Positions 8,145-34,253 of a stretch of DNA of 40,309 nucleotides are shown one piece after another. Where the stretch lies: contig JAJZUZ010000010.1 of the NCBI GenBank assembly GCA_021845965.1, forward strand, positions 1-40,309. The letters are read 5' to 3'. Each line of letters starts with the position of its first letter. Position 1 is the first letter of the stretch. The notes beneath the pieces are model-generated. The model was given only the letters and a program-made list of their open reading frames with translations, searched no databases and was not told the origin of the DNA. The DNA is from Pseudomonadota bacterium (GTDB lineage Bacteria > Pseudomonadota > Gammaproteobacteria > Burkholderiales > Burkholderiaceae_C). The position numbers were made by a program, and so were the translations under genes.

Positions 8145-8158
8145 ACATAGTCCTCTCC

Positions 8159-14915: not shown

Positions 14916-14973
14916 GTCACATCTCCTTGAGGTGTGGATGGACTGTAGAAAGCGGTGCTGCAATGCACCATCC

Positions 14974-15011
14974 TTCGGAGGTAGCGGCGAGGCCGGCCGG
15001 CATCCTCCGAA
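14974..15011 (-). repeat. Inverted repeat in the narK1 leader
   Basis: TTCGGAGG at 14974-14981 is the perfect reverse complement of CCTCCGAA at 15004-15011, with 22 GC-rich bases between them. If transcription begins about 41 bases downstream of the FNR box centre, this hairpin would lie in the 5' untranslated leader of the nar transcript. It could equally be a protein binding site. Confidence 0.5.
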
Positions 15012-15043
15012 AGAACTAGGCCGGCGGCCTATTCGACATGGGC

Positions 15044-15057
15044 TTGAGGTGGATCAA
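15044..15057 (-). promoter_or_regulatory. FNR/ANR-type box upstream of narK1
   Basis: The plus strand reads TTGAGGTGGATCAA, one base off the FNR consensus TTGAT-N4-ATCAA with correct spacing. Its centre is about 135 bases upstream of the narK1 ATG, in the only sizeable gap before the nar operon. A weak -10-like TAGTTC lies about 35 bases downstream on the minus strand. Anaerobic activation of narK1K2GHJI is the expected outcome. Confidence 0.6.
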
Positions 15058-15070
15058 ACCCGGAGGCGGT

Positions 15071-15096
15071 CCGCCGCGGCCGGCCGTTCGCGGCGG
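15071..15096 (-). terminator. GC hairpin after the GGDEF gene
   Basis: CCGCCGCG and CGCGGCGG form an eight-base-pair stem around a 10-base loop, 26 bases past the diguanylate cyclase stop and before the narK1 control region. No run of T follows, so factor-independent termination is uncertain. Confidence 0.3.
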
Positions 15097-15122
15097 CCGC
15101 GTCTGCGGCGCGATCGCGGCAC

Positions 15123-16121: not shown

Positions 16122-16260
16122 GCGCTTGTCGTGTCCTCGCCGGGAGGGCTACCCCAACAGGCAGATGGTATCGCGGCAAGCAGGCGGGGCGCCTGCCGGG
16201 TGGCGGCAAGGGCGTGCAAAACGCCGCTTTGTGTCGAAAACTGCCGGCCCCGCCGGCGCG

Positions 16261-16494
16261 TCAGAGCGGCGCGCGCCGTGCCAGCGCGAGCGGTGCCACG
16301 CCCGTGCGGGTCTGGAGAGTCTCCTCGTCCGGGCCGCAGGCGTCGTCCGCCAGCACCTCATTCAGGTAGGCGAGTTCGCTGGCGATCCAGAGCAGCGCCA
16401 GCAGGACACCGATCTTCCAGAGGCGCTCGAAAGTCATGACGCGGGTCAGCCACCGCCACAGGCGCGTGACGGCGCCCGGATTTTCTTCAGACAT
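16261..16494 (-). CDS. Small single-pass membrane protein, unknown
   Basis: I do not recognise this 77-residue protein. It has one membrane helix (about 24-40, GVLLALLWIASELAYL) preceded by basic residues and followed by a short tail containing a single cysteine (DDACGPDEE). The ATG at 16494 has only a weak ribosome site (AAGAA). It lies between the DCC-family gene and the diguanylate cyclase gene on the same strand. Coding status rests on the hydrophobic pattern and the absence of another gene in this gap. Confidence 0.5.
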   Translation of the reverse strand: MSEENPGAVTRLWRWLTRVMTFERLWKIGVLLALLWIASELAYLNEVLADDACGPDEETLQTRTGVAPLALARRAPL

Positions 16495-16589
16495 GTTCTT
16501 GACAACAAAACGGGAACGGGCTGCATTGTCGCCGCTCGCCGGCGTCTGCGCACGGAGCGCGGCCGGCACCCGCAGGCGGGCCGCGCGCA

Positions 16590-16979
16590 TCACGGCGCGG
16601 GTTCCTGCCAGTGCGCCCGCGCCCAGCGTTGCAGGCGCGGGCGCAGGCGCAGGAACAGCCGGTAGCCCAGTTCGAGCAGCCAGGACAGGGGCGGCAGCAG
16701 CGCCAGCCAGCCCAGCGCGCGCCAGCCGGGCAGGCTGCGCCACAGGCGGGCGAAGGCGGCGGCACCGCTGTACAGGCGCCCCCGGGCGTCGCGCACATGG
16801 AAGCGCCGCAGGGCCGCGGCACAGGACAGGTCGCTGCCGGTCGGGGCGCCGGCGCTGACGTCATGCCAGGCCAGGTGCTCGGCGCCGCGCAGGCGTTGGT
16901 AGAGCGCGATCTCACGCCGGCACAGCGGGCAGCTGCCGTCGTAGTAGACGGTCACTTCAGGGAGCGGGCTCGGGTGCAT
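16590..16979 (-). CDS. DCC-family thiol-disulfide oxidoreductase-like protein (DUF393)
   Basis: This 129-residue protein belongs to the DUF393/DCC family, named for the Asp-Cys-Cys pattern seen here as YYDGSCPLCRREI at residues 12-24. The thioredoxin-like CxxC suggests a redox role, but no substrate is established for the family. A hydrophobic segment near 85-110 (LGWLALLPPLSWLLELGYRLF) may contact the membrane. It starts 93 bases after narL and is transcribed in the same direction. Confidence 0.88.
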   Translation of the reverse strand: MHPSPLPEVTVYYDGSCPLCRREIALYQRLRGAEHLAWHDVSAGAPTGSDLSCAAALRRFHVRDARGRLYSGAAAFARLWRSLPGWRALGWLALLPPLSWLLELGYRLFLRLRPRLQRWARAHWQEPAP

Positions 16980-17072
16980 GGGGCGGCATCATGCCGCGCC
17001 TGGGCGCCCGGCTGCGGGCCCGACGCACAAGCCCCGTGCGGCGCAGGGGGTTTCGCCGGACGCGCGCCGGCC

Positions 17073-17747
17073 TCAGCGCACGCCGGCGTTGGCCGCCAAT
17101 ACGGCCGCCTGCACGCGGGTGCTCACATCCAGCTTGCGCAGCACATGCTGCACGTGGATCTTGACGGTGGTCTCGGCGATGCCGAGTTCGGCGCCGATCT
17201 CCTTGTTGCTGGCGCCGCGGGCGATGCTGCGCAGGATGTCGCGCTCGCGCGGGGACAGGCTTTCCAGCAGCGCGGCGGCCGGGCTGGTGGCTGCGGGCGA
17301 GGCAGCGGCTGTCTCGCCCTTGAGGGCGGCAACGAGCTTGCTGGTCATCTCGGGTGCCACCACGTTCTCGCCGCGCATGGCGTTGCGGATGGCGGTGGCC
17401 AGGGCCTCGCCCTCGATGGTCTTGAGCAGGTAGCCGGCGGCGCCGGCCTTCAGCGCCGCGCTCAGGTCCTGCTCGTCCTCGCTCACCGTGAGCATGAGTA
17501 CACGCGCCCTGGGCACGGCCTCGCGCAGGGCGGGCAGGGCGTCGACGCCGCGCACGCCGGGCAGGTGGTTGTCCAGCAGGATCAGGTCCGGTTGCAGCTC
17601 CTGCGCGCGGCGCTGGGCCTCGCCGGCGTCGGCGGCATCCCCAACGACTTCGAATTGGGGATCGCGGGCCAGCAGGGCGGTGAGGCCGCGGCGAAAGAGG
17701 GTGTGGTCGTCGACCACCAGGATGCGGATGGTGTCAGCTCGGGGCAT
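17073..17747 (-). CDS. narL: Nitrate/nitrite response regulator
   Basis: This 224-residue regulator has a receiver domain with phospho-acceptor Asp59 (the same number as in E. coli NarL), acidic residues Asp13-Asp14 and a conserved lysine in YLLK. A LuxR-type helix-turn-helix follows at about 160-215 (LSPRERDILRSIARG, KEIGAELGIAETTVKIH). It should be phosphorylated by the adjacent NarX and control nar genes. The start overlaps the end of narX by 14 bases, so the pair is translationally coupled. I could not identify convincing NarL heptamers near narK1. Confidence 0.95.
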   Translation of the reverse strand: MPRADTIRILVVDDHTLFRRGLTALLARDPQFEVVGDAADAGEAQRRAQELQPDLILLDNHLPGVRGVDALPALREAVPRARVLMLTVSEDEQDLSAALKAGAAGYLLKTIEGEALATAIRNAMRGENVVAPEMTSKLVAALKGETAAASPAATSPAAALLESLSPRERDILRSIARGASNKEIGAELGIAETTVKIHVQHVLRKLDVSTRVQAAVLAANAGVR

Positions 17748-19656
17748 GTTCCAGGGGCGGGGCGGGGGAGAGGGCGGCCGGTGGGACGCTGGCGGCGACC
17801 AGATGCGCGGGCAGTGTCAGCACCACCGAGGTGCCGGCGCCGGGGGTGGAGATCACGTCGAGCCGGGCGCCGATGCGTTCGGCGCGCTCGCTCATGATGC
17901 GCAGGCCGACGTGGCTGTCGTCGATGCCGGCCTCGCTGTCGAAGCCGCTGCCGTCGTCGCGCACCTCGAAGCGCCATTCGGGCTGTTGCTGCACGTCCAG
18001 CCAGACCTGGGAGGCGCGGGCGTGCTTGCGCACATTGGACAGCGCCTCCTGCACGATGTGCAGCACCTGGATCTGCAGGTCCGGCGCCAGCGGCAGGCCG
18101 TGGCCCTGCACCTGCAGGTGGGCCTTGAGGCCGCTTTGCAGCTCGAACTTGTGCAGCGTGGTGGTGAGGGCGGTCTCGATGTCCTCGGTGTTGGTGCGGG
18201 TGCGGAAGTGCAGAAGCAGCTCGCGCACGTCGCCGTAGCTCTCGCGCACGCCGGCGTCGATCTCTTCCAGCACGCGGGCCATGGCCTCGCGGTCGCCGGC
18301 GGCAAGGGCGTCGCGCATCAGCTGCACCTGGATCTTCAGGAAGGCCAGCGACTGGGCAATCGAGTCATGCAGCTCGCGTGCCAGCAGGTTGCGCTCCTGC
18401 GCCACGGCGGCTTCCATCTCCAGCGCATTGAGGCGCAGGTTCTCCATGGCACTGGCCAGATGGCTGGTGAGGGCCTCGAACAGCGAGCGTTCGGCGCCGG
18501 AGGGCGTGACCTTGGCGTGGAAGAACAGGTCCACTTCGCCCATGAGCCGCTCGTGCAGCCGCACGGGGACGGTGACGAGCGTCTCGAAGCCGGCCTTGCC
18601 GCACAGGCGCTCGCGGGCGTCGCCCAGCGCGTGGATGGGGATGACACGCAGGCCCGCCGTGCCGGGCGCCGCGCCGCAATCGCAGTCGCCTCGGTGGATG
18701 CAGTGCTCGGCATCCACCATCTCGGCGGGCAGGCCGTGGGCTGCCAGCATGAGGTAGCGCTGGTTGGCCTGGTCGGACCAGCGCAGCGTGACGCCGTCGG
18801 CATGGGCGATGTGCATGATGTTGTGCGCGAAGCCCTGGGCCAGCTCGTCCAGCGAGGTGGCGCGGCTGACCAGGGTGGTGACCTGGTACAGGTTTTCCAG
18901 CCGCTCGCGCTTTTCCTCCAGCTCGGCGGTCTTCTCGGCCACCTTGGCTTCCAGGTGGCGGTACATGGACTGCAGGTGGGCCGCCATGTCGTTGAAGCCG
19001 GCGGCCAGGGTGCCGAATTCGTCGCTGCTGTCGTGGTTCACGCGGGCGGCGAAATCGCCGCCCAGGATCTTCTCGATGGCCTGCTTGAGCTGGCCCACCG
19101 GCTCCAGCACCAGCGACTGGCCCACATAGAGCATGACGACCGCGCCCAGGACGACGAGCACCATCATCGAGGTCTGCAGCAGGTGCAGGATGGCGGTCCA
19201 GCGCGAGATGTGGGCCTCGATGCCCATCACGAAGCTGTCGATGTGCTCGACGAAACGGATGGTGTGGGCACGCAGGCCGGCCTGCGCGACGCCCGAGACC
19301 AGCAGGGGCCGGAAGCTCTGCCAGTCGCGTTCGATGAGTGCAAAGCGGGCCTGTACCGTGTCGTCCCAGGGCACGAACAGCGGCCGTTCGGGGTCGCCGT
19401 GGCGCAGCACCGCCAGGCTGGACTCGAACTTCTGCACCAGCTCCGGCAGCTCGGCAGGCTGCCCGGTGCTCAGCGTGAGGGCCAGGCGGTAGGTCTGCAT
19501 GCGCATGCGCCCGGCCTCGTTGACGGCGGCCGCGCCGCCGTCCAGCTGCCAGGACACCCACAGGGTGGCGGCGGTGGCCAGCAGGGCCAGCAGCAGGAAG
19601 GGCGTGCCCGCCAACGCCAGTTTGGCGCCCAGACTGCGTTGCTTGGACCGTGTCAT
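17734..19656 (-). CDS. narX: Nitrate/nitrite sensor histidine kinase
   Basis: This 640-residue membrane kinase has a helix at about 13-35, a periplasmic domain with the nitrate-binding P-box around 45-61 (NEAGRMRMQTYRLAL), a second helix near 160-182, HAMP, a central GAF-like region with a cysteine group (Cys319, 325, 327, 352) and a HisKA_3 domain with phospho-acceptor His430 in ARELHDSIAQ. An HATPase domain ends the protein. P-box and architecture match NarX/NarQ; its place directly before narL supports NarX. The ATG at 19656 is preceded by AGGAAA. An FNR-type box lies 60 bases upstream. Confidence 0.95.
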   Translation of the reverse strand: MTRSKQRSLGAKLALAGTPFLLLALLATAATLWVSWQLDGGAAAVNEAGRMRMQTYRLALTLSTGQPAELPELVQKFESSLAVLRHGDPERPLFVPWDDTVQARFALIERDWQSFRPLLVSGVAQAGLRAHTIRFVEHIDSFVMGIEAHISRWTAILHLLQTSMMVLVVLGAVVMLYVGQSLVLEPVGQLKQAIEKILGGDFAARVNHDSSDEFGTLAAGFNDMAAHLQSMYRHLEAKVAEKTAELEEKRERLENLYQVTTLVSRATSLDELAQGFAHNIMHIAHADGVTLRWSDQANQRYLMLAAHGLPAEMVDAEHCIHRGDCDCGAAPGTAGLRVIPIHALGDARERLCGKAGFETLVTVPVRLHERLMGEVDLFFHAKVTPSGAERSLFEALTSHLASAMENLRLNALEMEAAVAQERNLLARELHDSIAQSLAFLKIQVQLMRDALAAGDREAMARVLEEIDAGVRESYGDVRELLLHFRTRTNTEDIETALTTTLHKFELQSGLKAHLQVQGHGLPLAPDLQIQVLHIVQEALSNVRKHARASQVWLDVQQQPEWRFEVRDDGSGFDSEAGIDDSHVGLRIMSERAERIGARLDVISTPGAGTSVVLTLPAHLVAASVPPAALSPAPPLEHAPS

Positions 19657-23636: not shown

Positions 23637-24557
23637 TCAGAAACCGGATTTGTTGGTGAACCAGAAGCTGACGATGGGCGCCGTCGGATCGTCGAAGGAG
23701 GCGCCCAGGGCCATCTCGCCCTTGTCCAGCAGCACGCATTCCTGGCGGCGCAGCGAGATCACGGCGCGCGAGCCGGCGAAGCGCACCCAGGTGCCGTAGC
23801 TGCTGATGTCGGACAGCACGAACAGGTCGCCGCGGCGGTCCAGCCGCGCGTGCAGGCGGGAGACACGCGGGTCCAGCACCGCGAAGTGCGCGTCGTTGCC
23901 GCGGCCCATGAAGACCGGCATGTCGCCGGCCTCGAACAGGCCTTTCTGGTCGCGCCAGGTCAGCTCGATGGTGCTGGGCAGGCGGCTGCTGGGCGCACCC
24001 AGCGTGTCCAGGCCGGCGGCCATGGTCAGGAAGTCGGAAGCGGTGTCGCGCTGCCAATCGATGCGGTAGACGCTCATCGGCTCGCTCTTGCCGCGGATGT
24101 CCATCGGCCCGAGGTTGCGGAAATGGATGTCCTCGTCGTGCGGCAGGGCGTCGATCACGCTCTCGGAGGCGAAGATCTGGTCGCCGCCGGAGAGGTCGCT
24201 CAGGCGCGAGGCCACGTTGACGGCGTCGCCGAAGCAGTCGCCGTCCTGCTCGACCACCTCGCCGCGCGCCATCCCGATCTTGATCTTCATCTGGTCGCCG
24301 CCGGGCACGCTGCTGTGGCGCTCGCGGTGCGAGCTCTGCAGCTCGATGGCGGCCAGCACGGCGCCGGGGTTGTACTCGAAGGACAGCAGCACACCATCGC
24401 CGAGGTACTTGATGACGCGGCCGCCGCGCGCCTGGCACAGCTTGCCGATCCAGTGGGTGGTCCGGGTGACCACCTCTGCCGCCCGGCTGTTGCCCAGCGC
24501 CTCGAACAGGCCGGTGCTCCCGGTCAGGTCGGCGAAGACAATGGTGAGTTCAGCCAT
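23637..24557 (-). CDS. Class III adenylate/guanylate cyclase with FHA domain
   Basis: This 306-residue protein has an N-terminal class III cyclase domain (about 1-185) with metal-binding Asp10 in FADLTGST and Asp54 in KYLGDGVLLSF, and a C-terminal FHA domain (about 213-300) with GR at 218-219 and SRLH at 233-236. It should make cAMP (or possibly cGMP) in the cytoplasm, while the FHA part would bind a phosphothreonine partner. The usual NGT of FHA domains reads YGT here. It precedes the hybrid kinase gene by four bases and is divergent from a cyclic-nucleotide-binding protein. Confidence 0.92.
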   Translation of the reverse strand: MAELTIVFADLTGSTGLFEALGNSRAAEVVTRTTHWIGKLCQARGGRVIKYLGDGVLLSFEYNPGAVLAAIELQSSHRERHSSVPGGDQMKIKIGMARGEVVEQDGDCFGDAVNVASRLSDLSGGDQIFASESVIDALPHDEDIHFRNLGPMDIRGKSEPMSVYRIDWQRDTASDFLTMAAGLDTLGAPSSRLPSTIELTWRDQKGLFEAGDMPVFMGRGNDAHFAVLDPRVSRLHARLDRRGDLFVLSDISSYGTWVRFAGSRAVISLRRQECVLLDKGEMALGASFDDPTAPIVSFWFTNKSGF

Positions 24558-24642
24558 GCGGTGGAAATAAGACGGTTGGAAGCAGGGTTTTGAATATTAT
24601 CGCCGGCTGCGATGGGCCTGGCCCGGTCCACGCCGGACTTGC

Positions 24643-24656
24643 TTGACCAGACTCAA
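24643..24656. promoter_or_regulatory. FNR-like palindrome between cyclase and CNB genes
   Basis: TTGACCAGACTCAA keeps TTGA and TCAA half-sites at the spacing of an FNR/CRP-family box (TTGA-N6-TCAA) but loses the inner T and A. It lies 86 bases before the cyclase start and 120 bases before the cyclic-nucleotide-binding gene, in their shared 219-base divergent region. Confidence 0.35.
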
Positions 24657-24776
24657 GAATAAGGGCTGTGGCGCCGGGCCGGGAAGAGGGGCGCCCCGAA
24701 CGCCAGGGGCGGATGTGTAAGATGCCGTAACCGTGCCCCGCGCAGGCGGGCCTTTCCTTCCGAGAGGGCGCAGTCC

Positions 24777-25331
24777 ATGGGTATCGATCCGACCATCGTC
24801 CAGAACGTCGCAGAGCGCATGCGCGCCGAGGTGCTGCCGCGCGCCAACCCCTCGCCCTCGCCCTCGCTCAAGCTCGATCCGGCCATCATCCAGAAGATTG
24901 CACAGAAGGTGCCGATCTTCGCCGGCATGGGCCAGGCGGCGCTGCTGGCGACGCTGGCGACGGGCGAGCATTTCTCGGTGCAGACCGGCGAAGCCGTGTT
25001 TCGCGAAGGCGATATGGGCAACTCCTTCTATGTGCTGATCGCGGGCGACGTCGCGGTGGAGAAACAGCGCGACGGCAAGCCCGTGGAACTCAAGCGCCTG
25101 GGCCCGGGTGAATGCTTCGGCGAGATGGCGCTGGTGGGCAACGACGTGCGCTCGGCCACGGTGCGCGCCCTGGGGCCGGTGGTGGCCATGCGCTTTTATC
25201 GCGAGCTGATCGACGCCCACCCGGAAGGCGCCTCCATCATCTACCGCAACATCGCGCGCATCCTGGCCGCGCGCCTGGGCGAGTCCAGCGTGATGCTGGC
25301 GGACCTGAAGCAGCGCGACACCGCCGCCTGA
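24777..25331 (+). CDS. Stand-alone cyclic-nucleotide-binding domain protein
   Basis: This 184-residue protein carries one cyclic-nucleotide-binding domain (about 45-165). Its phosphate-binding cassette is complete: Phe114-Gly115-Glu116, Arg125 and Ser126-Ala127-Thr128, a pattern typical of cAMP binding. There is no helix-turn-helix or catalytic domain, so it is a signal receiver without an obvious output. A helical N-terminus and a Pro-Ser linker (residues 25-30) come first. The ATG at 24777 is preceded by GAGAGG. Its divergent neighbour is a class III cyclase, which points to a local cAMP circuit. Confidence 0.92.
   Translation: MGIDPTIVQNVAERMRAEVLPRANPSPSPSLKLDPAIIQKIAQKVPIFAGMGQAALLATLATGEHFSVQTGEAVFREGDMGNSFYVLIAGDVAVEKQRDGKPVELKRLGPGECFGEMALVGNDVRSATVRALGPVVAMRFYRELIDAHPEGASIIYRNIARILAARLGESSVMLADLKQRDTAA
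24849..24866 (+). repeat. Three tandem CCCTCG hexamers
   Basis: Three perfect CCCTCG units lie inside the cyclic-nucleotide-binding gene and encode the Pro-Ser linker. Loss or gain of a unit would keep the frame and change linker length. Confidence 0.7.
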
Positions 25332-25345: not shown

Positions 25346-26272
25346 TCACGCAGCCGCATTGCGCCAGGGCGCCAGCAGCGTCGCAATCTCGTCCAGTTGC
25401 CGCACGGTGGTCACCCCCTCGATGGCGCGGCGGTGCAGGGCCGGATGGCTGCCGCCCGCCCACAGCTGCACGGCCGCCGGCAGGCGCTCCCGCAGTTCCT
25501 GCAGATCGCGCAGCAGCAGCAGCGGGCTGAAGGCCGGACTGAAGCTCAGGCCCACGATCTGTGCCCGGTTGGCCGCGGCGGCGCGCACGATCTCGTCCAC
25601 CGGGGTCTGCGCGCCCAGCGAGATGCACTCGCAGCCTTCCAGCGTCAGCATCACCTCGGCCATCAGCAGGCCCAGCACATGGGACTCGTGCGGGAAGGTG
25701 GCCAGCAGCACCCGGGGCATGCCCGGGCGCGGCAGGATGGCCGTGCTGCCCAGCGCGCTGCGCAGCACGGCGACCACGCTTTCGGTGTACGTGTGCTCCT
25801 CGAACACCTGGATCTCGCCGCGCATCCAGGCCTCGCCGATCTGCACGTTCAGCGGCGCCAGCACCTCGGTCAGGAAGCGGCCCAGGCCCAGGCGCATGAC
25901 GTTCTGGTTCAGGGTGCGCCGCAGCGCCAGCGTGTCGTGGCCACGCACCAGGGCCAGCAGGGCCTGCAGTTCGGGGCTGGCGGGTGCGGCGGCGTCGGTG
26001 GGCGCCGCCTGCTGCGTCAGCTGCTGCAGTTCCTCCAGCGGCAGCGGCACGACCCGGCCCGGGCGCAGGCCGGCGCCCAGCAGGCGCGCGATCAGGCGCA
26101 GGCGCTCCACCTGCGCGGGCGGGTAGAGGCGCTCATCGTAGGCGTCACGGACCGGCTGCGGGAAGCCGTAACGGCGTTCCCAGACCCGCAGGGTGTCCTT
26201 GGCCAGGCCGGTATCGCGTTCCACGGCGGCAATGGACAGGCCTGCCGCAGCCTCGGCGGCACGCGCCGTCAT
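25346..26272 (-). CDS. litR: LitR/CarH-type MerR regulator, adenosylcobalamin photoreceptor
   Basis: This 308-residue repressor-like protein has an N-terminal MerR helix-turn-helix (about 10-80, with the typical LRVWERRYGFPQP), a helical cap domain and a Rossmann-type cobalamin-binding domain. The cap shows W-x9-EH (Trp149, Glu159, His160), the hallmark of CarH/LitR light sensors, and the cobalamin domain shows E-x-H-x-x-G (His198, the expected lower cobalt ligand). CarH proteins bind DNA in the dark and let go when light breaks the cobalt-carbon bond. The residue after Trp149 is Met, where Thermus CarH has His132. I chose ATG 26272; a TTG at 26299 is possible. It is divergent from an eight-gene operon. 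Confidence 0.88.
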   Translation of the reverse strand: MTARAAEAAAGLSIAAVERDTGLAKDTLRVWERRYGFPQPVRDAYDERLYPPAQVERLRLIARLLGAGLRPGRVVPLPLEELQQLTQQAAPTDAAAPASPELQALLALVRGHDTLALRRTLNQNVMRLGLGRFLTEVLAPLNVQIGEAWMRGEIQVFEEHTYTESVVAVLRSALGSTAILPRPGMPRVLLATFPHESHVLGLLMAEVMLTLEGCECISLGAQTPVDEIVRAAAANRAQIVGLSFSPAFSPLLLLRDLQELRERLPAAVQLWAGGSHPALHRRAIEGVTTVRQLDEIATLLAPWRNAAA

Positions 26273-26308
26273 ATCTGACTCGACTTCATGGTCTTTCAAG
26301 ATTTTTCA

Positions 26309-26325
26309 TTTTGTCTAGGACAAAA
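26309..26325. promoter_or_regulatory. Palindrome between litR and the FAD operon; candidate operator
   Basis: TTTTGTCTAGGACAAAA consists of seven-base arms TTTTGTC/GACAAAA around TAG. It sits in the AT-rich 157-base divergent region, 37 bases upstream of litR, and overlaps where promoters for either direction would lie. A further TTTGTC half-site follows at 26373-26378. Assignment to LitR is inferred from position. Confidence 0.5.
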
Positions 26326-26429
26326 CAGGATATTCTGCCGAACAGTCGCAATATTAGCGGGATATACAGATGTTTGTCCATGTCAAAGAAAGAAGCCCCG
26401 GGAGCCAGCCGGCGGAACACCGGGGGCGG

Positions 26430-27725
26430 ATGCGGGTGGCCGTCGTCGGCTCCGGCATCTCCGGCCTGGGTGTCGTGCATGCGCTGCAGGGGCGGGCCGA
26501 CCTGACCCTGTTCGAGGCCGGCAGCTACTTTGGCGGCCACACGCACACCGTGGACATCACCCTGCCCACGGCCCAGGGCCCGGTGAGCTGGGGCGTGGAC
26601 ACCGGCTTCCTGGTCTTCAATGAGCGCACCTATCCCAATCTGATCCGCCTGTTCGCCGAACTCGGCGTGGGCACGACCAAGACCGACATGTCCTTCTCGG
26701 TGCAGTCGCGCGATGCGCGCGGCGCTCGCCTGGAGTGGAACGGCGCCACCTTGGACACCGTGTTTGCCCAGCGGCGCAACCTGCTGAACTGGCGCTTCCT
26801 GCGCATGCTGCGCGAAGTGCTGCGCTTCAACCGCCTGGCCACGGCGCTGGCCGAGGCCGGCGCCGACGCCCAGCTCGCGCAGCCGCTGGGTGCCTGGCTG
26901 GACGTGCACCGCTTCAGCGCCGAATTCCGCGACTGGTACTTCCTGCCCATGATGGCCTGCATCTGGAGCTGCCCGACGGCGCAGATGCTGGCATTTCCGG
27001 TCTCCACCATGATCCGCTTCTGCCACAACCACGGCCTGATCCAGGTGAACGGCCGTCCCCAGTGGTGGACCGTGCCCGGTGGCGCGCGCCGCTATGTGGA
27101 GAAGATCGTGGCCGGCATCGCCGACAAGCGCCTGAACACGCCGGTGTGGGCCATCGACCGCGATGCGCAGGGCGTCACCGTGCACTCCGACCGCGGCGCC
27201 GAGCGCTTCGACCAGGTGGTGCTGGCCACCCATTCGGACCAGGCCCTGGCCCTGCTGCGCGAACCCAGCGCCGACGAGCGGCGCGTGCTGGGTGCCATTC
27301 GTTACCAGCCCAACCGTGCCGTGCTGCACACCGACGCCAGCGTACTGCCGGCCAGCCGCCGTGCCTGGGCCGCCTGGAACTACGAACGGGCCGCCGCGCC
27401 CGAGCAGGAGGGCAGCCGCGTCTGCCTGCACTACCTGCTCAACCAGCTGCAGCCGCTGCCTTTCGAGCAGCCGGTGGTGGTGACGCTCAACCCCTTGCGC
27501 GAGATCGCGCCCGAGCAGGTGCTGGGTGACTTCGAGTACGCCCACCCGGTGTTCGATCTGGCCGCGATCGCCGCCCAGCAGGAACTGCCGGCCCTCCAGG
27601 GCCTGCAGCGCACCTGGTTTGCCGGCGCCTGGGCCGGCTACGGCTTTCATGAGGACGGCCTCAAGGCCGGCCTGGGCGTGGCGCAGCAGCTGCTGTCCAT
27701 GCAGGCTCTGCAGAGGCCGGCATGA
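26430..27725 (+). CDS. FAD-dependent amine-oxidase-like oxidoreductase (COG2907 type)
   Basis: This 431-residue flavoprotein opens with a dinucleotide-binding motif (VAVVGSGISGLG) and the FEAGSYFGGH segment typical of NAD(P)-binding-like amine oxidase and desaturase relatives; the C-terminal FAGAWAGYGFHEDGL segment completes the FAD site. The ATG at 26430 places the motif at the N-terminus and follows GGGGGCGG; an upstream ATG at 26370 would add 20 residues without a good ribosome site. It leads an operon with DUF1365 and a cyclopropane-synthase-like gene, a combination seen widely in proteobacteria, so a fatty-acyl substrate on membrane lipids is a reasonable inference. Confidence 0.9.
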   Translation: MRVAVVGSGISGLGVVHALQGRADLTLFEAGSYFGGHTHTVDITLPTAQGPVSWGVDTGFLVFNERTYPNLIRLFAELGVGTTKTDMSFSVQSRDARGARLEWNGATLDTVFAQRRNLLNWRFLRMLREVLRFNRLATALAEAGADAQLAQPLGAWLDVHRFSAEFRDWYFLPMMACIWSCPTAQMLAFPVSTMIRFCHNHGLIQVNGRPQWWTVPGGARRYVEKIVAGIADKRLNTPVWAIDRDAQGVTVHSDRGAERFDQVVLATHSDQALALLREPSADERRVLGAIRYQPNRAVLHTDASVLPASRRAWAAWNYERAAAPEQEGSRVCLHYLLNQLQPLPFEQPVVVTLNPLREIAPEQVLGDFEYAHPVFDLAAIAAQQELPALQGLQRTWFAGAWAGYGFHEDGLKAGLGVAQQLLSMQALQRPA

Positions 27726-28522
27726 AGACCGAGCTGCGCGTCGGCAATGTGCCGCTCATCGGCTTCGGGCAGGTGCGCCACACGCGCCTGCGCCCGGCGC
27801 GCCACGCCTTCGACTACGCCACTTTCTTCCTGCTGCTGCCGCTGCGCAGCATGCGCGCGCACGGCGCAGGTCCGCTGGCCTGCAATCGTGCCGCCTGGCT
27901 GAGCTTTCACGACGCCGATCACGGCGACGGCCGCGGCCCGCAGCAGGGCGGCGCGCTGGCCTGGATGGAGGAGCTGCTGGCGGCGCACGGCATCCATGAT
28001 GCCGATGGCGAGATCTGGCTGCACTGCTACCCGCGCGTGCTGGCTTATGCCTTCAAGCCGGTGAGCTTCTGGTACTGCCACCGCGCCGACGGCACGTTGC
28101 GCGCCATCGTGGCCGAAGTCAACAACACCTTCGGCGAACGCCACTGCTACCTGCTGGAGCAGCCGCGCTACGGCGCCGAACTGCGCGCCACCAAGGTCTT
28201 CCATGTCTCGCCGTTCTGCCGTGTCGAGGGCGAGTACGTCTTTCGCTTCATGCGCACCGTGCGCGATGGGGTGACCCACACCGTGGTGCGCGTGGACCTG
28301 CACGACGCGCAGGGCGCGCTGCTGCAGACCAGCATCAGCGGCGTGCTGCAGCCCTACACCCGCGACAGCGCGGGCCGCGCGCTGTGGCGCCAGCCGCTGA
28401 TGACGCTGGCCCTGATCGCCCATATCCACTGGCAGGCGCTGCGCCTGTGGCGCAAGCGTGTGCCCTTCTTCCGCAAGCCGGCCCCGCCGGCGGATTTCGT
28501 CACCCGATCCCACCCCCTCTGA
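27722..28522 (+). CDS. DUF1365 protein
   Basis: This 266-residue protein belongs to DUF1365, a family of unknown function that nearly always accompanies the FAD oxidoreductase and Cfa-like genes found on either side here. Recognisable family segments are RHAFDYATFFLLLPL near residue 27, the YPRVLAYAFKPVSFWYCH segment near 104 and KVFHVSPFCRVEGEYVFRF near 157. No signal peptide is present. Its ATG overlaps the stop of the FAD gene (ATGA), showing translational coupling. A part in membrane fatty acid modification is likely from context. Confidence 0.9.
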   Translation: MKTELRVGNVPLIGFGQVRHTRLRPARHAFDYATFFLLLPLRSMRAHGAGPLACNRAAWLSFHDADHGDGRGPQQGGALAWMEELLAAHGIHDADGEIWLHCYPRVLAYAFKPVSFWYCHRADGTLRAIVAEVNNTFGERHCYLLEQPRYGAELRATKVFHVSPFCRVEGEYVFRFMRTVRDGVTHTVVRVDLHDAQGALLQTSISGVLQPYTRDSAGRALWRQPLMTLALIAHIHWQALRLWRKRVPFFRKPAPPADFVTRSHPL

Positions 28523-28531
28523 GTCCCCGTG

Positions 28532-29755
28532 ATGAACACCACCACCGCCCCTCGCCTTGTCCTGCCGCGCAGCGCACCCGCTGCCGCCCGCACCGTACTG
28601 CGCCTGCTGGAGCGTCTGCAGCACGGCACGCTCACGCTGCAGCTGCCCGATGGCAGCCTGCGTTATTACGGCAATGGCCAGCCACCGGCCGCGGCCATCA
28701 GCGTGCACGACTGGTCGGTCTTCGGCGCCGCGCTCAAGTCGGGTGACATCGGCTTTGCCGAGAGCTACCGCGATGGCCACTGGAGCACGCCGGACCTCGC
28801 CGCGCTGCTGCGCCTGTTCATCCACAACCGCCAGCAGCTGGAAGACGTGGTCTACGGCAACTGGCTGGGCGGCCTGCTGTACCGCCTGCGTCACCTGCTG
28901 CACCGCAATACCAAGACCAACAGCCGCAAGAACATCCACGCCCACTACGACCTGGGCAATGCCTTCTACCGCCTCTGGCTGGACGAGACCATGAACTACT
29001 CCGCCGCCTGGTTCGAGGGCGGGCACGAGGGCGACATGGTCAGCGCGCAACGCGCCAAGGTGGCGCGCGCGCTGCGCATGACCGGCGTACAGCCGGGCGA
29101 CCGCGTGCTGGAGATCGGCTGCGGCTGGGGCGCACTGGCCGAGATGGCGGTGAGCGACTTCCAGGCGCGCATCACGGGCGTCACGCTCAGCACCGAGCAG
29201 CTGGCCTGGGCGCAGGACCGCGTGGGCCGCCTCGGCCCGGAGGCGGCCACCCGCGCCGACCTGCGGCTGCAGGACTACCGCGACATCGATGACGGCCCCT
29301 ACGACGCCATCTGCTCCATCGAGATGGTGGAGGCGGTGGGACGCGAATACTGGCCGACCTACTTCGAGACGGTCAGCCGCCTGCTGCGCCCGGGCGGGCG
29401 CGCCTGCATCCAGAGCATCGTCATCGACGACCGCCTGTTCGAGCGCTACGTCCGCTCCACCGACTTCATCCAGCAGTACATCTTCCCCGGCGGCTGCCTG
29501 CCCTGCCCGACGGAGTTCCGCCGCCAGGCCGCGGCCGCCGGCCTGCGCGTGGCCGACGAGCTGTGCTTCGGCGCCGACTACGCCGAGACCCTGCGCCGCT
29601 GGCGCCGCCAGTTCCTGGCCGAGCGCGGCCGCATCCTGCAACTGGGCTTTGACGAAAGGTTCATGCGTCTATGGGAGTTCTACCTCGCCTATTGCGAAGC
29701 CGCGTTCGACGAAGCGAACATCGACGTCGTCCAGTACACGCTGCAAAAAGTCTAG
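28532..29755 (+). CDS. Cyclopropane-fatty-acyl-phospholipid synthase-like methyltransferase
   Basis: This 407-residue S-adenosylmethionine-dependent enzyme of the Cfa/mycolic-acid-synthase family has the SAM motif VLEIGCGWG at 192-200 and the NIHAHYDLGNAFYRLWLDE segment at 134-152 that shapes the lipid site. Cfa enzymes add a methylene group across cis double bonds of membrane phospholipids; close relatives methylate unsaturated chains. An N-terminal lipid-binding-like domain (about 25-120) is present. The ATG at 28532 follows an in-frame GTG at 28529. Which product is made, cyclopropane or methylated acyl chain, cannot be told from the sequence. Confidence 0.92.
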   Translation: MNTTTAPRLVLPRSAPAAARTVLRLLERLQHGTLTLQLPDGSLRYYGNGQPPAAAISVHDWSVFGAALKSGDIGFAESYRDGHWSTPDLAALLRLFIHNRQQLEDVVYGNWLGGLLYRLRHLLHRNTKTNSRKNIHAHYDLGNAFYRLWLDETMNYSAAWFEGGHEGDMVSAQRAKVARALRMTGVQPGDRVLEIGCGWGALAEMAVSDFQARITGVTLSTEQLAWAQDRVGRLGPEAATRADLRLQDYRDIDDGPYDAICSIEMVEAVGREYWPTYFETVSRLLRPGGRACIQSIVIDDRLFERYVRSTDFIQQYIFPGGCLPCPTEFRRQAAAAGLRVADELCFGADYAETLRRWRRQFLAERGRILQLGFDERFMRLWEFYLAYCEAAFDEANIDVVQYTLQKV

Positions 29756-30288
29756 TGCTCGCACTCCTGTGCGCCGGCGCCGCCCTGCTGCGCGCCGAGC
29801 CCCTGCCGGCGGCGGCGCCGACCCCGCTGGCTGAGCTGCGCGCGGCCGGCAGCGGCAGCTACACCTGGTGGGGCTTCACGGTCTATGAGGCCAGCCTGTG
29901 GGTGGCGCCGGGCTTTGACGCCGCCGACCTTGCGCGCCAGCGCTACGTGCTGGAGCTGAAATATGCGCGCGCCTTCAAGGGCAGCGATATCGCGCAACGC
30001 TCGCAGGACGAGATGCGGCGCATCGGGACCTTCAGCGAAGCGCAGGGCCAGCGCTGGCTGCAGGCCATGCAGCGCGCCTTTCCCGATGTGCGGCCGGGCG
30101 ACCGGCTGCTGGGTGTGCACGAGCCGGGGCGCGGCGCGCAGTTCTACGCCAACGGCCGGCCGACGGCGGAGATAACCGACACGCGCTTTGCCGAGCTGTT
30201 CTTCGGCATCTGGCTGTCGGAACAGACCTCGGCGCCGCAGCTGCGCCTGGCGCTGCTGGGGCCGGCCCTGGCAGGGTCGGGGCGCTGA
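29755..30288 (+). CDS. Chalcone-isomerase-like secreted protein
   Basis: This protein of about 177 residues belongs to the chalcone-isomerase-like family, with the typical YTWWGFTVYEASLWV strand and the DEMRRIGTFSEAQGQRW and YANGRPTAEITDTRFAELFFGIWL segments. Bacterial members have unknown function and often bind fatty acids. A hydrophobic stretch ending in LLRAEPLPA looks like a signal peptide. The start is uncertain: the GTG at 29755 shares a base with the Cfa stop (TAGTG), while an ATG at 29671 inside the Cfa gene would give a longer, basic N-terminus. It lies three bases before the transporter gene. Confidence 0.82.
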   Translation: MLALLCAGAALLRAEPLPAAAPTPLAELRAAGSGSYTWWGFTVYEASLWVAPGFDAADLARQRYVLELKYARAFKGSDIAQRSQDEMRRIGTFSEAQGQRWLQAMQRAFPDVRPGDRLLGVHEPGRGAQFYANGRPTAEITDTRFAELFFGIWLSEQTSAPQLRLALLGPALAGSGR

Positions 30289-30291
30289 GCC

Positions 30292-31575
30292 ATGCAGGCG
30301 GCTGCGAACTCCGCGCTGCCCGGCGCCCAGGCCTGGCGCTATGGCCTCATGGGCCTGCCGCTGGCCTTTGTCGCCTTGCCGCTGTACGTGCTGCTGCCCA
30401 ACCATTACGCACGCGAATTCGGCCTGCCGCTGGCCACGCTCGGCACCTTGCTGCTGATCACCCGCCTCCTGGACGCCGTCATCGACCCGCTGCTGGGACG
30501 CGCCTGCGACCACCTCTTTCGCCGCTCGGCCGGCGCGGTGCTGCGCGCCGCCGCGCTGGCCTGCGTGCTCATGGGGGCCGGCTTTGCGGCGCTGTTCTTT
30601 CCCCCGGTACAGGGCCGGGATGCGCTGCTGGCCTGGAGTGCGTTGTGGCTGGTGCTGACCTACGCCAGCTACAGCGCCGTGATGCTGGCGCACCAGTCCT
30701 GGGGCGCGCTGTTCGCCGGTGATGCCCTGCAGCAGGGGCGCCTGGCGGCCTGGCGCGAGGGGCTGGGCCTGGCGGGTGTGCTGCTGGCCTCCGTGCTGCC
30801 CCTGTGGTGGGGCCTGCGCGGCACGGTGCTGCTGTTCTGGCTGGCGCTGCTGGTCGCATGGTGGAGCTGGCGCCACGCGCCACGCCCCTCCGTGGCGAGC
30901 GCCGCGCCGGTCCCGGCCGCGGCAGTCTGGCTGCCCTGGCGCCGCGCCGGGTTCCGGCGCCTGCTGGCGGTCTTTGTCCTCAACGGCATCGCCAGCGCGG
31001 TGCCGGCCACGCTGGTGCTGTTCTTCGTGCAGGACCGTCTGCGGGCACCGCCGGCGCTGGAGCCGCTGTTTCTTGGTGGCTACTTCCTCAGTGCGGCATT
31101 GTCCCTGCCGCTGTGGCTGCGCGCCGTGCGTCGCTTCGGCCTGGCGCGCAGCTGGCTGGCCGGCATGCTGCTGGCGGTGGCGGTGTTCGGCTGGGCCGGT
31201 GCGCTGGGAGCGGGCGATGCCATGCCCTTTCTGCTCATCTGCGGGCTGTCGGGCGTGGCGCTGGGGGCGGACCTGGTCATGCCGGCCGCCCTGCTGGCCG
31301 GCCTGATGGCGCGCAATGGCGACCTGGGCCAGACGCAGGGCGCCTATTACGGCTGGTGGAACTTCGCCACGAAGGCCAACCTGGCCCTGGCGGCCGGCCT
31401 GGCGCTGCCGCTGCTGGCGCATTTTGGTTACACACCGGGCGCGCAGACATCACAGGCGCAACTTGCGTTAACTATTGCCTACTGTTTTCTCCCATGTGCG
31501 CTTAAGCTGCTGGCTGCAGCGCTCGTCTACGGTTTTTTCATCAGGCGCCGAAGCGGCGCGAAAGGATCCCCATGA
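30292..31575 (+). CDS. MFS transporter, GPH/MelB-like
   Basis: This 427-residue protein has about 12 membrane helices and belongs to the glycoside-pentoside-hexuronide:cation branch of MFS carriers, shown by the LLLITRLLDAVIDPLLG segment near residue 60 and GAYYGWWNFATKANLALA near 348. Substrate is unknown; the operon makes a sugar unlikely and a lipid or pigment-related compound possible. It starts three bases after the preceding gene and overlaps the next by four bases (ATGA). Confidence 0.9.
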   Translation: MQAAANSALPGAQAWRYGLMGLPLAFVALPLYVLLPNHYAREFGLPLATLGTLLLITRLLDAVIDPLLGRACDHLFRRSAGAVLRAAALACVLMGAGFAALFFPPVQGRDALLAWSALWLVLTYASYSAVMLAHQSWGALFAGDALQQGRLAAWREGLGLAGVLLASVLPLWWGLRGTVLLFWLALLVAWWSWRHAPRPSVASAAPVPAAAVWLPWRRAGFRRLLAVFVLNGIASAVPATLVLFFVQDRLRAPPALEPLFLGGYFLSAALSLPLWLRAVRRFGLARSWLAGMLLAVAVFGWAGALGAGDAMPFLLICGLSGVALGADLVMPAALLAGLMARNGDLGQTQGAYYGWWNFATKANLALAAGLALPLLAHFGYTPGAQTSQAQLALTIAYCFLPCALKLLAAALVYGFFIRRRSGAKGSP

Positions 31576-32132
31576 AACGACGTCTGCTGCTGGCCGGTGC
31601 GGCCGTGCTCGGTGCCGGCACGCTGGCCGGCTGTGCCTCGCCCACGCTGGCTGATTACGCCAACGAGAAGCCGCGCCTGGACATGCGGCGGTTCTTCAAC
31701 GGCCGCGTCGATGCGCACGGCATCTTCACCGACCGCTCGGGCAAGGTGGTCAAGCGCTTCACCGTGGTCATGAACTGCCGCTGGAGCGGCGCGCCCGGCC
31801 AGGAGGTTGGCGTGCTGGACGAAGACTTCACCTACTCCGACGGCAGCAAGCAGCGGCGCGTGTGGACGCTGCGACGCCAGCCGGGCCAGGACGGCCAGGG
31901 TCGTTATGTCGGTACCGCCGCCGACGTGGTGGGCGAGGCCAACGGCGAGGAGCGCGGCAATGCCTTCTATTGGGGCTATTACCTGAACCTGGAGGTCGAC
32001 GGGCGCACGGTGGTCGTGCGTTTTGACGACTGGATGTACCTGATGGACGAGCACGTCATGCTCAACCGCGCCGCCATGAGCAAGTGGGGCGTCAACCTGG
32101 GCGAGGTCACCCTCGCCTTCACCAAGAACTGA
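31572..32132 (+). CDS. DUF3833 lipoprotein
   Basis: This 186-residue protein begins with a lipoprotein signal peptide: MKRRLLL, a hydrophobic core and the lipobox LAGC with Cys at residue 21, so it should be anchored to a membrane facing the periplasm. The rest matches DUF3833, a beta-rich family, with DMRRFFNGRVDAHGIFTDRSG, VLDEDFTYSDG and the FDDWMYLMDEHVMLNRA segment. It may bind a hydrophobic molecule. Function is not established. It overlaps the transporter stop by four bases and is followed after two bases by an SDR gene. Confidence 0.9.
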   Translation: MKRRLLLAGAAVLGAGTLAGCASPTLADYANEKPRLDMRRFFNGRVDAHGIFTDRSGKVVKRFTVVMNCRWSGAPGQEVGVLDEDFTYSDGSKQRRVWTLRRQPGQDGQGRYVGTAADVVGEANGEERGNAFYWGYYLNLEVDGRTVVVRFDDWMYLMDEHVMLNRAAMSKWGVNLGEVTLAFTKN

Positions 32133-32134
32133 CC

Positions 32135-32941
32135 ATGGCATTCAATCCCCCGCTGCGCGACTGGCGCGGCAAGACCGTCTGGCTCGTCGGCGCCTCCAGC
32201 GGCATCGGCGAGGCCTGTGCCAACCTGCTGTACGAGCAGGGCGCCACGGTCTTTGTCTCGGCACGCAATTCGCTGGTGCTCAACGTCTGGGCCGGCCAGC
32301 GCGGGGAGCGCGACACGCTGGGGCGCGCCCGTGCGGTGGCGCTGCCGCTGGACGTGGGGGATGCCAATGCGCTGCATGTCGCGGCCCGCCTGATCGAGGA
32401 GCGCGGCCCGCTGGACATGGTGATCTATTGCGCCGGCTACTACAAGGCGCTGCAGGCCGACAGCTACAACCTGGGCGAGATGCTGCGCCACCAGCAGGTC
32501 AACTACATCGGTGCGCTGCACCTGCTTGATGCCGTGCTGCCCATCCTGCACAAGCAGGCGGCCGCGGGGCAGGGCGGGCATCTGTGCCTGGTCAGCAGCG
32601 TGGCCGGTTACCGTGGCCTGCCCAAGAGCCTGGCCTATGGGCCGACCAAGGCGGCGCTCACCAATCTGGCCGAGACCCTGTATCTCGACCTGCAGCCGCT
32701 GGGGCTGGGCGTGAGCGTGGTCAACCCCGGCTTCGTGGAAACGCCACTCACGGCCCAGAACGACTTCCGCATGCCGGCGCTGATCACGCCGCCGCAGGCG
32801 GCCCAGGCCATGCTGGACGGCTGGGCGCGCGGCCACTTCGAGCTGCACTTTCCGCGCCGCTTCACGCGCTGGCTCAAGCTGCTGCGCCTGCTGCCCTACA
32901 GCCTCTACTTCCCGCTCGTGAAGAAGGCGACCCGATCATGA
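32135..32941 (+). CDS. SDR-family oxidoreductase of the light-response operon
   Basis: This 268-residue short-chain dehydrogenase has the cofactor motif VGASSGIGEA near residue 18, an YCAGYYKALQAD segment in place of the usual NNAG, and the catalytic Ser-Tyr-Lys set (LVSSVAG, then AYGPTKAAL). The C-terminus (HFELHFPRRFTRWLKLLRLLP) is basic and amphipathic and may touch the membrane, as in some lipid-acting SDRs. The ATG at 32135 lies two bases after the preceding stop; the open frame upstream lies inside the DUF3833 gene. It overlaps the next gene by ATGA. Confidence 0.9.
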   Translation: MAFNPPLRDWRGKTVWLVGASSGIGEACANLLYEQGATVFVSARNSLVLNVWAGQRGERDTLGRARAVALPLDVGDANALHVAARLIEERGPLDMVIYCAGYYKALQADSYNLGEMLRHQQVNYIGALHLLDAVLPILHKQAAAGQGGHLCLVSSVAGYRGLPKSLAYGPTKAALTNLAETLYLDLQPLGLGVSVVNPGFVETPLTAQNDFRMPALITPPQAAQAMLDGWARGHFELHFPRRFTRWLKLLRLLPYSLYFPLVKKATRS

Positions 32942-33366
32942 GTCATGCCGTGGAACGCATCGTGGTCTTCTTCGAGACGCTGACGCCCCACAGTGTGGCG
33001 CGCTTTGCCGAGTTCTACACCGAGGACGCGTACTTCAAGGATCCCTTCAACGAGGTGCGCGGCGTGCCGCAGATCCAGCAGATCTTTCTCCACATGTACG
33101 AGCAGCTGCACGAGCCGCGCTTCATCGTCACGGCGCGCGTGGCGCAGGACGAGCAGGTGTTCCTGAGCTGGGATTTCCGCTTTCGCTTCCGGCGCTACCG
33201 CCCCGGCACCGAGCAGCTCATCCGCGGCGGCAGCCACCTGCTGCTGGCACCCGATGGCCGCATCCGTTCGCACCGCGACTACTGGGACGCGGCCGAGGAG
33301 CTGTATGAGAAGCTGCCCGTCGTGGGTGGGCTGATGCGCTGGCTCAGGCGGCGCGCCAGCAGCTGA
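32938..33366 (+). CDS. NTF2/SnoaL-like protein
   Basis: This 142-residue protein has the cone-shaped NTF2-like (SnoaL) fold pattern: an N-terminal helix, the segment FAEFYTEDAYFKDPFNEVRG (residues 23-42) and beta strands ending in RIRSHRDYWDAAEELYEKLP. Family members include small isomerases and ligand-binding proteins; no specific reaction can be assigned. It is the last gene of the operon led by the FAD oxidoreductase, overlapping the SDR by four bases and converging on the SGNH hydrolase gene five bases later, with no clear terminator. Confidence 0.88.
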   Translation: MSHAVERIVVFFETLTPHSVARFAEFYTEDAYFKDPFNEVRGVPQIQQIFLHMYEQLHEPRFIVTARVAQDEQVFLSWDFRFRFRRYRPGTEQLIRGGSHLLLAPDGRIRSHRDYWDAAEELYEKLPVVGGLMRWLRRRASS

Positions 33367-33371
33367 GGCCC

Positions 33372-34253
33372 TCAGGGCAGGTGGCTGTCGATGAAAGGCT
33401 GGAATTTCTCCGCCAGCTTGCGGTAGCCCGGCGCCGTCAGGTGGATCTCGTTGAGCCAGTCGCCGCTGGCGTAGTGCGCCTCCGGGTCGGCCGCCTGCAG
33501 TTCCACTGCCCCATAGCTGTCGAACACGTACACGCGGTCGGCGGGTGAGTGCAAGCCCAGCAGGGTGCTGCGCAGGCGGCCAAACAGCTCGTCGCTGACC
33601 ATCTGCCGGTGCGCGGGTGGAATCGCGAACGCCGCCTGCGCGAGCGCCCGGTACAGCCAGGGCCCGCCACCGCCCGTGGGCGCATCACGCACCACCGGCC
33701 GGTGGTAGGTGTGCAGGAAGATGGGCGCCTTCCAGTCGCCGCTGCGGCTCTTGCTCTGGTCGCGGCGCTGCACCAGGGTGGCGAGGTTGTGGCGCAGGTA
33801 GCCGGCCAGGCGCTCCCAGCCGGCCGGCGACACATAGTCCCGTCCCGCGCTCGGGTTGGGCACGCGTTCTTCCGGCCGCAGCAACAGGCGGTCGGCCGGC
33901 GCGTGGTCCGCGGGCAGCGCGCAGGCCTCGATCAGGTCGTTGCCGCCGGCCGACAGCAGGAGGGCGTCCCAGCGCCGCTGCTGCACACCGTCGAGCAGGC
34001 GGTTGAAATTCGGGTCGCTCAGCGCGTCCACCATGCGCCTGAGCGTTTCACCGGGGCTGGCGCAGTTGACGACCACGTCATGGGCCGTGTTGACCCGCAG
34101 CAACTCCAGCACGATGTTGCTGGTCAGCGGCGCCAGCGTGTCGCCGAGCGAGAACCAGGAGTCCCCTTCGGCCAGAAAACGGTAGCGGTAGAGATCCAGG
34201 CTGACATAGCTTTCGCCGATGTCGAGCACCTGGCTGGGGCGCAGGTAGTCCAT
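33372..34253 (-). CDS. SGNH/GDSL-type hydrolase
   Basis: This 293-residue protein has the SGNH hydrolase blocks: GDSW with nucleophile Ser32 (block I), a GGND block (block III) near residue 103 and the closing D-x-x-x-x-IH pattern (DWLNEIHLT) near 275 that supplies Asp and His. It should be an esterase or lipase-like enzyme; no signal peptide is visible, so it appears cytoplasmic. The ATG at 34253 is preceded by AGGGAGAAGG. It converges on the light-response operon and follows the NUDIX gene on the same strand after 72 bases. Confidence 0.87.
   Translation of the reverse strand: MDYLRPSQVLDIGESYVSLDLYRYRFLAEGDSWFSLGDTLAPLTSNIVLELLRVNTAHDVVVNCASPGETLRRMVDALSDPNFNRLLDGVQQRRWDALLLSAGGNDLIEACALPADHAPADRLLLRPEERVPNPSAGRDYVSPAGWERLAGYLRHNLATLVQRRDQSKSRSGDWKAPIFLHTYHRPVVRDAPTGGGGPWLYRALAQAAFAIPPAHRQMVSDELFGRLRSTLLGLHSPADRVYVFDSYGAVELQAADPEAHYASGDWLNEIHLTAPGYRKLAEKFQPFIDSHLP

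Follow-up and report, generated by a model that had tools for sequence, protein, structure and literature searches.

Furan fatty acid synthesis in Rhodobacter sphaeroides depends on UfaM, UfaD (RSP1091, with an NAD/FAD domain) and UfaO (RSP1090, with DUF1365), which convert cis-vaccenoyl chains into 9M5-FuFA; RSP1087-1089 are dispensable for this synthesis, and RPA2571, RPA2570 and RPA2569 of Rhodopseudomonas palustris are the corresponding UfaD, UfaO and UfaM (PMC7380195, cited here, like the other PMC papers, from parts of its text). Accessions Q3J4I7, Q3IYV7 and Q3IYV8 are given for the R. sphaeroides proteins in PMC10940516. Class I LitR regulators are assigned by a Wx9EH motif together with a second B12-binding motif (PMC8156234), which we read as ExHxxG. 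Here we analysed a 40,309-nucleotide stretch of DNA from a Burkholderiales bacterium (contig JAJZUZ010000010.1 of assembly GCA_021845965.1; hereafter the window), corresponding to contig C36 in a draft genome of 3.0 Mb and 83% completeness. It carries a litR gene divergent from an eight-gene operon, and we consider, with a probability of about two in three, that the operon is light-controlled and serves furan fatty acid synthesis, and that in it LitR loaded with adenosylcobalamin (AdoCbl) would repress from two boxes in the dark and be released by light.

Results

The LitR/ufa-Like Locus

Gene families were assigned by Pfam. The layout described in an earlier note on this DNA, a LitR gene divergent from eight tightly joined genes, was borne out by the positions of the open reading frames (ORFs). 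The litR gene (25346-26299, minus strand, TTG start) codes for a MerR-type regulator with a two-part B12-binding region of the class I LitR/CarH type (MerR_1, B12-binding_2 and B12-binding), and the eight genes occupy positions 26430-33366 of the plus strand, neighbours overlapping or being separated by nine bases or fewer. Pfam also agreed with the families that had been named for LitR and all eight genes, the GPH type of the MFS_2 carrier coming from a further model whose match fell below its cut-off.

The first three genes of the operon code for an FAD oxidoreductase, a DUF1365 protein and a CMAS protein, and their families and order match ufaD-ufaO-ufaM of RPA2571-2569. The ufaD-like gene (26430-27725; NAD_binding_8/Amino_oxidase) codes for an NAD/FAD-binding oxidoreductase, a putative methyl-branched acyl desaturase, with its role taken from the family and from the gene order shared with RSP1091/RPA2571. 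The ufaO-like gene product (27722-28522) contains DUF1365, as UfaO proteins do, and is a putative furan-forming oxygenase, and the ufaM-like gene (28529-29755; CMAS family) is predicted to encode an S-adenosylmethionine-dependent fatty acyl methyltransferase. With this set of genes the operon would very probably make furan fatty acids, membrane lipids protecting against light damage. The earlier note had proposed a membrane-lipid or small-molecule pathway and had left its product unnamed; the membrane-lipid part stands, and a product can now be suggested, since a trio of the ufaD, ufaO and ufaM type is present. A point against the assignment is that the pathway was matched by family and gene order. 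The model of the UfaO-like protein (27722-28522; pLDDT 93) matched no PDB fold at E <= 0.001, and a credible sequence match was lacking as well (best E 0.63).

Conservation of the Locus

Conservation was assessed in 41 loci, namely the window and 40 fetched stretches of 9-14 kb, some of the 41 being cut by contig ends or by the limits chosen. The fetched loci came from 39 of the 63 other genomes with the divergent arrangement, hand-picked from the better LitR scores, plus genome G133. LitR and all eight genes were found together in 35 of the 41 loci. UfaD, UfaO and UfaM were present in 40 loci each, the chalcone-isomerase-like (CHI) protein in 39, the GPH carrier in 38, the DUF3833 protein in 37, the short-chain dehydrogenase (SDR) in 36 and the NTF2-like protein in 35; 39 of the 41 loci had been selected for adjacency of LitR and DUF1365, so that the presence of ufaO beside LitR is partly due to selection. 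In one locus (L050) ufaO lies before ufaD. A folE2-type ORF (type I GTP cyclohydrolase; Pfam GCHY-1 for the one tested) was present in 22 of the 41 stretches, for instance in L032, and folE2, which the earlier note had also missed, was not found in the draft genome of the window, which is 83% complete.

A tally was also made over 300 genomes of the order, drawn without such selection. The LitR search scored at most seven candidates per genome, and the tally used 114 LitR entries, five short or fragmentary ones being omitted (further pieces in G016, G270 and G293) together with two fragmentary DUF1365 entries (G276 and G219). LitR matched at E <= 1e-15 in 105 genomes and DUF1365 was found in 145. 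DUF1365 was present in 87 of the 97 genomes with a strong LitR (>180 bits), the other ten lacking a match, versus 58 of the 203 remaining genomes, figures that are uncorrected for kinship. LitR was divergent from DUF1365 within 12 kb in 64 of the 300 genomes, which represent 19 families counted by hand, and the LitR/ufa arrangement is a conserved module. In view of this recurrence, a chance pairing of LitR with an unrelated lipid operon can hardly be credited. In a phylum-wide draw, LitR matched (E <= 1e-20) in at least nine of 398 genomes, six of them from this order including the window's own; at most five candidates per genome were scored, which makes this a lower bound.

The LitR Regulator

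The window LitR aligned with CarH chains of known structure (5c8d and 3whp) at E values of about 1e-24, and its nearest named relatives come from Curvibacter, Hylemonella and Burkholderiales metagenome-assembled genomes (MAGs), with 63-75% identity, so that the host probably belongs among them. Both adenosylcobalamin motifs that had been reported for this protein could be read, GEAWMRGEIQVFEEH for Wx9EH and ESHVLG for ExHxxG, and both were present, together with GxxxP, in all 41 LitR proteins, that of the window included. Residues W131, E141, H142 and H177 of Thermus CarH have been named for the light signature GxxW, EH, GxxH and GxxxP (PMC11796333). In the window LitR, W131, E141/H142 and H177 correspond to GEAW, EEH and ESH, and GxxxP reads GAQTP. 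Both B12 domains are retained, unlike in class II LitR, which is recognized by a four-helix B12 domain alone, and a cobalamin adenosyltransferase gene was found in the window's genome. We infer from these features that the window LitR would bind AdoCbl and be released by light.

Three features of the protein weigh against the proposed light response. At the GxxH signature the window LitR reads HESH, the lower-axial His being kept and the first Gly being replaced by His; the position of Thermus His132, beside the Trp, is Met in the window LitR and is His in none of the 41 proteins; and the NCBIfam CarH equivalog model NF052513 gave 113 bits against a cut-off of 400. Because the two motifs are kept, His132 is absent and the NF052513 score lies below the cut-off, the window protein is filed as a class I LitR/CarH homologue and not as a Thermus-type CarH.

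The absence of His132 in 41 of 41 proteins lends some weight to an alternative, in which LitR controls the operon and senses something besides light, or B12 status alone, the AdoCbl site acting as a cofactor sensor. One study ties His132 to tetramer disassembly in Thermus CarH, the H132A variant being mostly tetrameric in the light, and the same study cites an earlier contrary report in which H132A does disassemble (PMC10442372). On the other hand, CtMerR, which has Arg at the His132 position, is counted among reported photoreceptors (PMC11796333). Moreover, all 41 proteins keep Wx9EH, the motif that caps the adenosyl group, and the pathway itself, folE2 in 22 of the 41 loci and photolyase in seven point towards light. 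A sensor of something other than light appears improbable to us, and light control of the operon remains the preferred explanation.

As a side observation, two MAG contigs titled Bordetella parapertussis (L096) and Rickettsia typhi (L105) carry a LitR of this type with 52% and 49% identity, respectively; both titles are probably mislabels.

Operator-Like Boxes and Promoters

The litR-ufaD gap contains two TTGTC-N3-GACAA palindromes, a new feature that the earlier note had missed. Box 1 (TTGTCTAGGACAA, 26311-26323), a putative LitR operator, has perfect arms (TTGTC/GACAA), and box 2 (TTGTCCATGTCAA, 26374-26386), a putative second operator with one mismatch, starts 63 bp from the start of box 1 and lies 43 bases before ufaD. 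The exact palindrome was found in 21 of 41 LitR upstream regions versus 1 of 867 control windows taken from these loci, and at one mismatch in 32 of 41 versus 9 of 867.

The distance between the boxes is also conserved. Using a position weight matrix (PWM) trained on the 41 loci, window included, the two best sites lay 62-64 bp apart in 23 loci. When both sites had to exceed a fixed score, spacings of 63, 64 and 62 bp occurred in 11, four and three loci, respectively, against an average of 0.07 loci for other spacings between 20 and 259. The 22 loci passing the pair listing belong to nine families by our own mapping. In 20 named loci distinct from the 41 (best DNA match 81%), any spacing from 20 to 149 was allowed, and in 13 of them the best pair was exactly 63 bp apart; ten of the 13 are closely related to the window, with LitR identities of 63-75%, and three are more distant (49-51%). 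At 10.5 bp per turn, 63 bp makes six turns, a distance that would fit a tetramer touching both boxes on one face.

In 17 of the 22 pair loci, TTGACN occurs 0-2 bases after box 1, a motif found at 0.5% of all positions in these regions, and in the same 17 loci a hexamer resembling a -10 element (3-5 of 6 matches) lies 17-18 bases beyond it; from these two elements a sigma70-type promoter would be predicted between the boxes in those loci. In the window, a candidate litR promoter (TGGACA-N18-TAATAT, 26351-26380, minus strand) that matches the consensus was the sole promoter-like match in 26200-33800, and its -35 lies inside box 2.

Several observations weaken the operator assignment. At two mismatches the box is also common in controls (40 of 41 LitR regions versus 162 of 867 windows). 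TTGAC is missing after box 1 in five of the 22 pair loci, and between the boxes of the window, as in its closest relatives by reading, no clear -35 of a forward promoter was seen. Seven of the 20 named loci yielded no 63-bp pair, some of them on truncated contigs. The window genome contains 58 box places at one mismatch versus 61 for the reversed pattern, and on this comparison a genome-wide LitR regulon derived from a box search was rejected. Finally, it is by position and co-occurrence that LitR is linked to the boxes, and binding to them is what we infer from that link.

This last point, together with the overlap of box 2 by the -35 of the candidate litR promoter, would suit an alternative in which the boxes serve a different regulator or form part of a promoter, LitR acting elsewhere. 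The enrichment of the boxes at LitR upstream regions speaks against it, as does locus L071, which has a box before LitR and in which no adjacent ufa gene was found; besides, the two window boxes are located between litR and ufaD, whereas the genome's other exact copy (contig C196) falls inside a long open frame. We judge this alternative quite unlikely and retain the boxes as putative LitR operators.

The L071 locus (4705-7366), from a genome of the same family, has LitR with an exact box, followed on the same strand by a Lipocalin_2 lipoprotein and an Amino_oxidase-type protein.

The UfaM-Like Protein and the Probable Lipid Product

At the positions of the residues that we take to be catalytic in Cfa (Cys139, Glu239, His240, His266 and Tyr317 in Escherichia coli numbering), the CMAS protein of the window has Ala, Glu, Ala, Gln and Tyr. 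Among the 40 UfaM-type proteins compared (window plus 39), the first position is Ala or Ser in 39 and Cys in one, and the others are Glu, Ala, Gln and Tyr in all 40. With the Cys and both His replaced, the window protein would be compatible with a methyltransferase that forms no cyclopropane ring, and on these residues its reading as a cyclopropane fatty acid synthase was disfavoured.

A broader alternative is that another modified lipid is formed, the CMAS protein making cyclopropane or simple methyl-branched chains, or the conjugated diene being the end product. Membership of the CMAS family and the best PDB matches, which are cyclopropane synthases, would agree with it. However, the Cys139, His240 and His266 positions differ from Cfa in 39, 40 and 40 of the 40 proteins; all five residues are kept in the window genome's other two CMAS proteins of full length (contigs C276 and C133); and UfaD- and UfaO-type genes accompany UfaM in all 40 loci that carry it. 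Such a product seems unlikely, and a furan fatty acid is preferred.

Separately, contig C133 (L081, G000:C133, 86-2856) carries the third CMAS paralogue (476 aa), overlapping an FAD_binding_4 oxidase (447 aa), a pair that presumably resembles TmsB/TmsA (BfaB/BfaA) for 10-methyl fatty acids.

Accessory Genes

The remaining five genes of the operon follow ufaM. The CHI-like gene (Chalcone_3; about 29671-30288) overlaps ufaM, its start codon being uncertain, and its product has a hydrophobic N-terminal stretch. Next come the GPH/MFS_2 carrier (30292-31575) and the DUF3833 lipoprotein (31572-32132), which has an LAGC lipobox with Cys21 invariant across 28 sequences. The model of the latter (pLDDT 93) is a calycin/lipocalin-like beta-barrel whose nearest solved folds include the calycin-type CpeS, Ycf58, nitrobindin and lipocalins; these fold matches are weak (TM about 0.4-0.6, best E 1.8e-4), and no sequence match was credible (best E 0.095). 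An SDR (adh_short; 32129-32941) and a SnoaL_2/NTF2-like protein (32938-33366) complete the operon. The CHI-like protein, the DUF3833 lipoprotein and the carrier may have a lipid-handling role.

Photolyase and Neighbouring Genes

The earlier note had stressed that a photolyase, usual in related regulons, is missing here. None is present in the operon, but this is nothing special: no photolyase was found in the fetched stretch (9-14 kb) of 34 of the 41 loci in a search limited to relatives of the photolyase on contig C259 (E <= 1e-10), and this last gene (G000:C259) belongs to the window's own genome. In the other seven loci a photolyase is found at the operon's 3' end or close to it. Its absence was consequently dropped as a special feature or as a missing regulon member, being usual in the compared loci and the gene being present on another contig. 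On reading, no box was seen in the stretch upstream of the G000:C259 photolyase, for which no separate scan was made. Outside the order, one LitR (L109) lies beside a photolyase-like frame, as read from its translation.

Adjoining litR, the window contains genes for a protein with Guanylate_cyc and FHA domains and for a cNMP-binding protein (23637-25331), and both are kept near LitR in three named loci (L086-L088). Further away (5036-19656) there are nitrate reductase genes, two nitrate transporters and a NarX/NarL-type pair, identified by ORF reading, with Pfam used only for the sensor and the response regulator. An Rfam scan of the window gave no match at gathering scores.

Discussion

In the proposed mechanism, AdoCbl-loaded LitR would sit in the dark on both palindromes, which are spaced by 63 bp, and would cover or bridge the region of the divergent promoters; litR and the eight genes would both be repressed. 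Light would break the Co-C bond, LitR would be released and the operon transcribed. UfaM would then methylate cis-vaccenoyl chains of phospholipids, UfaD would desaturate the methylated product and UfaO would close the furan ring with O2, giving a furan lipid that would quench singlet oxygen. Accessory roles would fall to the five remaining products (CHI-like protein, calycin-like lipoprotein, carrier, SDR and SnoaL-like protein), perhaps in the handling or movement of lipid in the envelope.

More tentatively, and as a possibility in which we place less than even confidence, the locus may exemplify a B12 photoreceptor family that is widespread in the order and functions without the Thermus His132. 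Its operators would be inverted repeats six turns apart, a single AdoCbl-LitR tetramer (two dimers) would bridge or clamp the divergent promoter in the dark, and it would gate a furan module whose own CHI-like and calycin-like proteins would handle the lipid and deliver it to the envelope.

If the proposal is correct, AdoCbl photoreception, mainly known from the control of carotenoids, would be joined to furan fatty acids, singlet-oxygen quenchers that have so far been tied to ChrR in Rhodobacter and, through ufaM, to a LOV-driven LitR in Pseudomonas. That none of the 41 proteins has His132, and that the putative operators are paired at 63 bp, would bear on how B12 photoreceptors let go of DNA. 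Named cultured candidates are Curvibacter delicatus, Curvibacter sp. PAE-UM and Methyloversatilis universalis, non-phototrophs that possibly shield their membranes in daylight. Among the literature matches listed, none dealt with a furan fatty acid operon accompanied by a B12-type LitR, and an earlier mention is possible.

The earlier note had a LitR/CarH-type regulator opposite a membrane-lipid operon and a kinship with light and singlet-oxygen regulons, and both are supported. Compared with the class I CarH/LitR proteins of Thermus, Bacillus megaterium and Myxococcus, the window LitR shares the MerR DNA-binding domain, B12-binding_2 plus B12-binding, Wx9EH and ExHxxG; those regulators are known for carotenoid genes, whereas the window LitR faces a lipid operon, and the His132 of Thermus CarH is absent from all 41 proteins. 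The operators of Thermus and B. megaterium CarH consist of three and four tandem 11-bp repeats, respectively (PMC8156234), while no tandem pair of such repeats (nAnnTnnACAn) was present in the 41 regions, a single core occurring on the minus strand of box 2.

The class II LitR system of Pseudomonas (PplR/PmlR) is similar in that a LitR-type repressor lies beside ufaM, an FAD oxidoreductase, an SDR and other genes, with light induction and two LitR sites at the promoter (PMC9758184). It differs in that its LitR has one B12 domain only and receives the signal from a short LOV protein, whereas the window LitR has both B12 domains; in its sites, which are T(G/A)TACA-N12-TGTACA and not TTGTC-N3-GACAA; and in a cluster that includes photolyase, unlike the window operon (PMC9758184). 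PhrR of that type of regulon was rejected as a counterpart, being a TyrR-type protein.

The ufa genes of R. sphaeroides are under sigmaE-ChrR control, and in the window genome (83% complete) a ChrR-type Cupin_7 anti-sigma factor gave no match above the cut-off, with one below it (20.9 versus 27 bits). RSP1091-1087 plus ufaM of R. sphaeroides and RPA2571-2569 of R. palustris share UfaD, UfaO (DUF1365) and UfaM with the window, in the gene order of RPA2571-2569; in R. sphaeroides the ufa genes are raised on loss of the anti-sigma factor ChrR (PMC7380195), whereas the window operon is linked to LitR. The blue-light response of Vibrio cholerae also has a MerR-type light regulator (VCA0056), together with ChrR, and a light-induced Cfa-like gene, VC1122; it differs in that VCA0056 lies in a predicted operon with phr, and the word "cobalamin" does not occur in that text (PMC5241685). 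Light induction of ufaM under LitR in Pseudomonas and the use of B12-type LitR/CarH for carotenoid genes are already known, and the arrangement in the window is probably a B12-based version of the light response known from other bacteria; the combination, with its new operator layout and conserved eight-gene set, appears to be a new form of that response.

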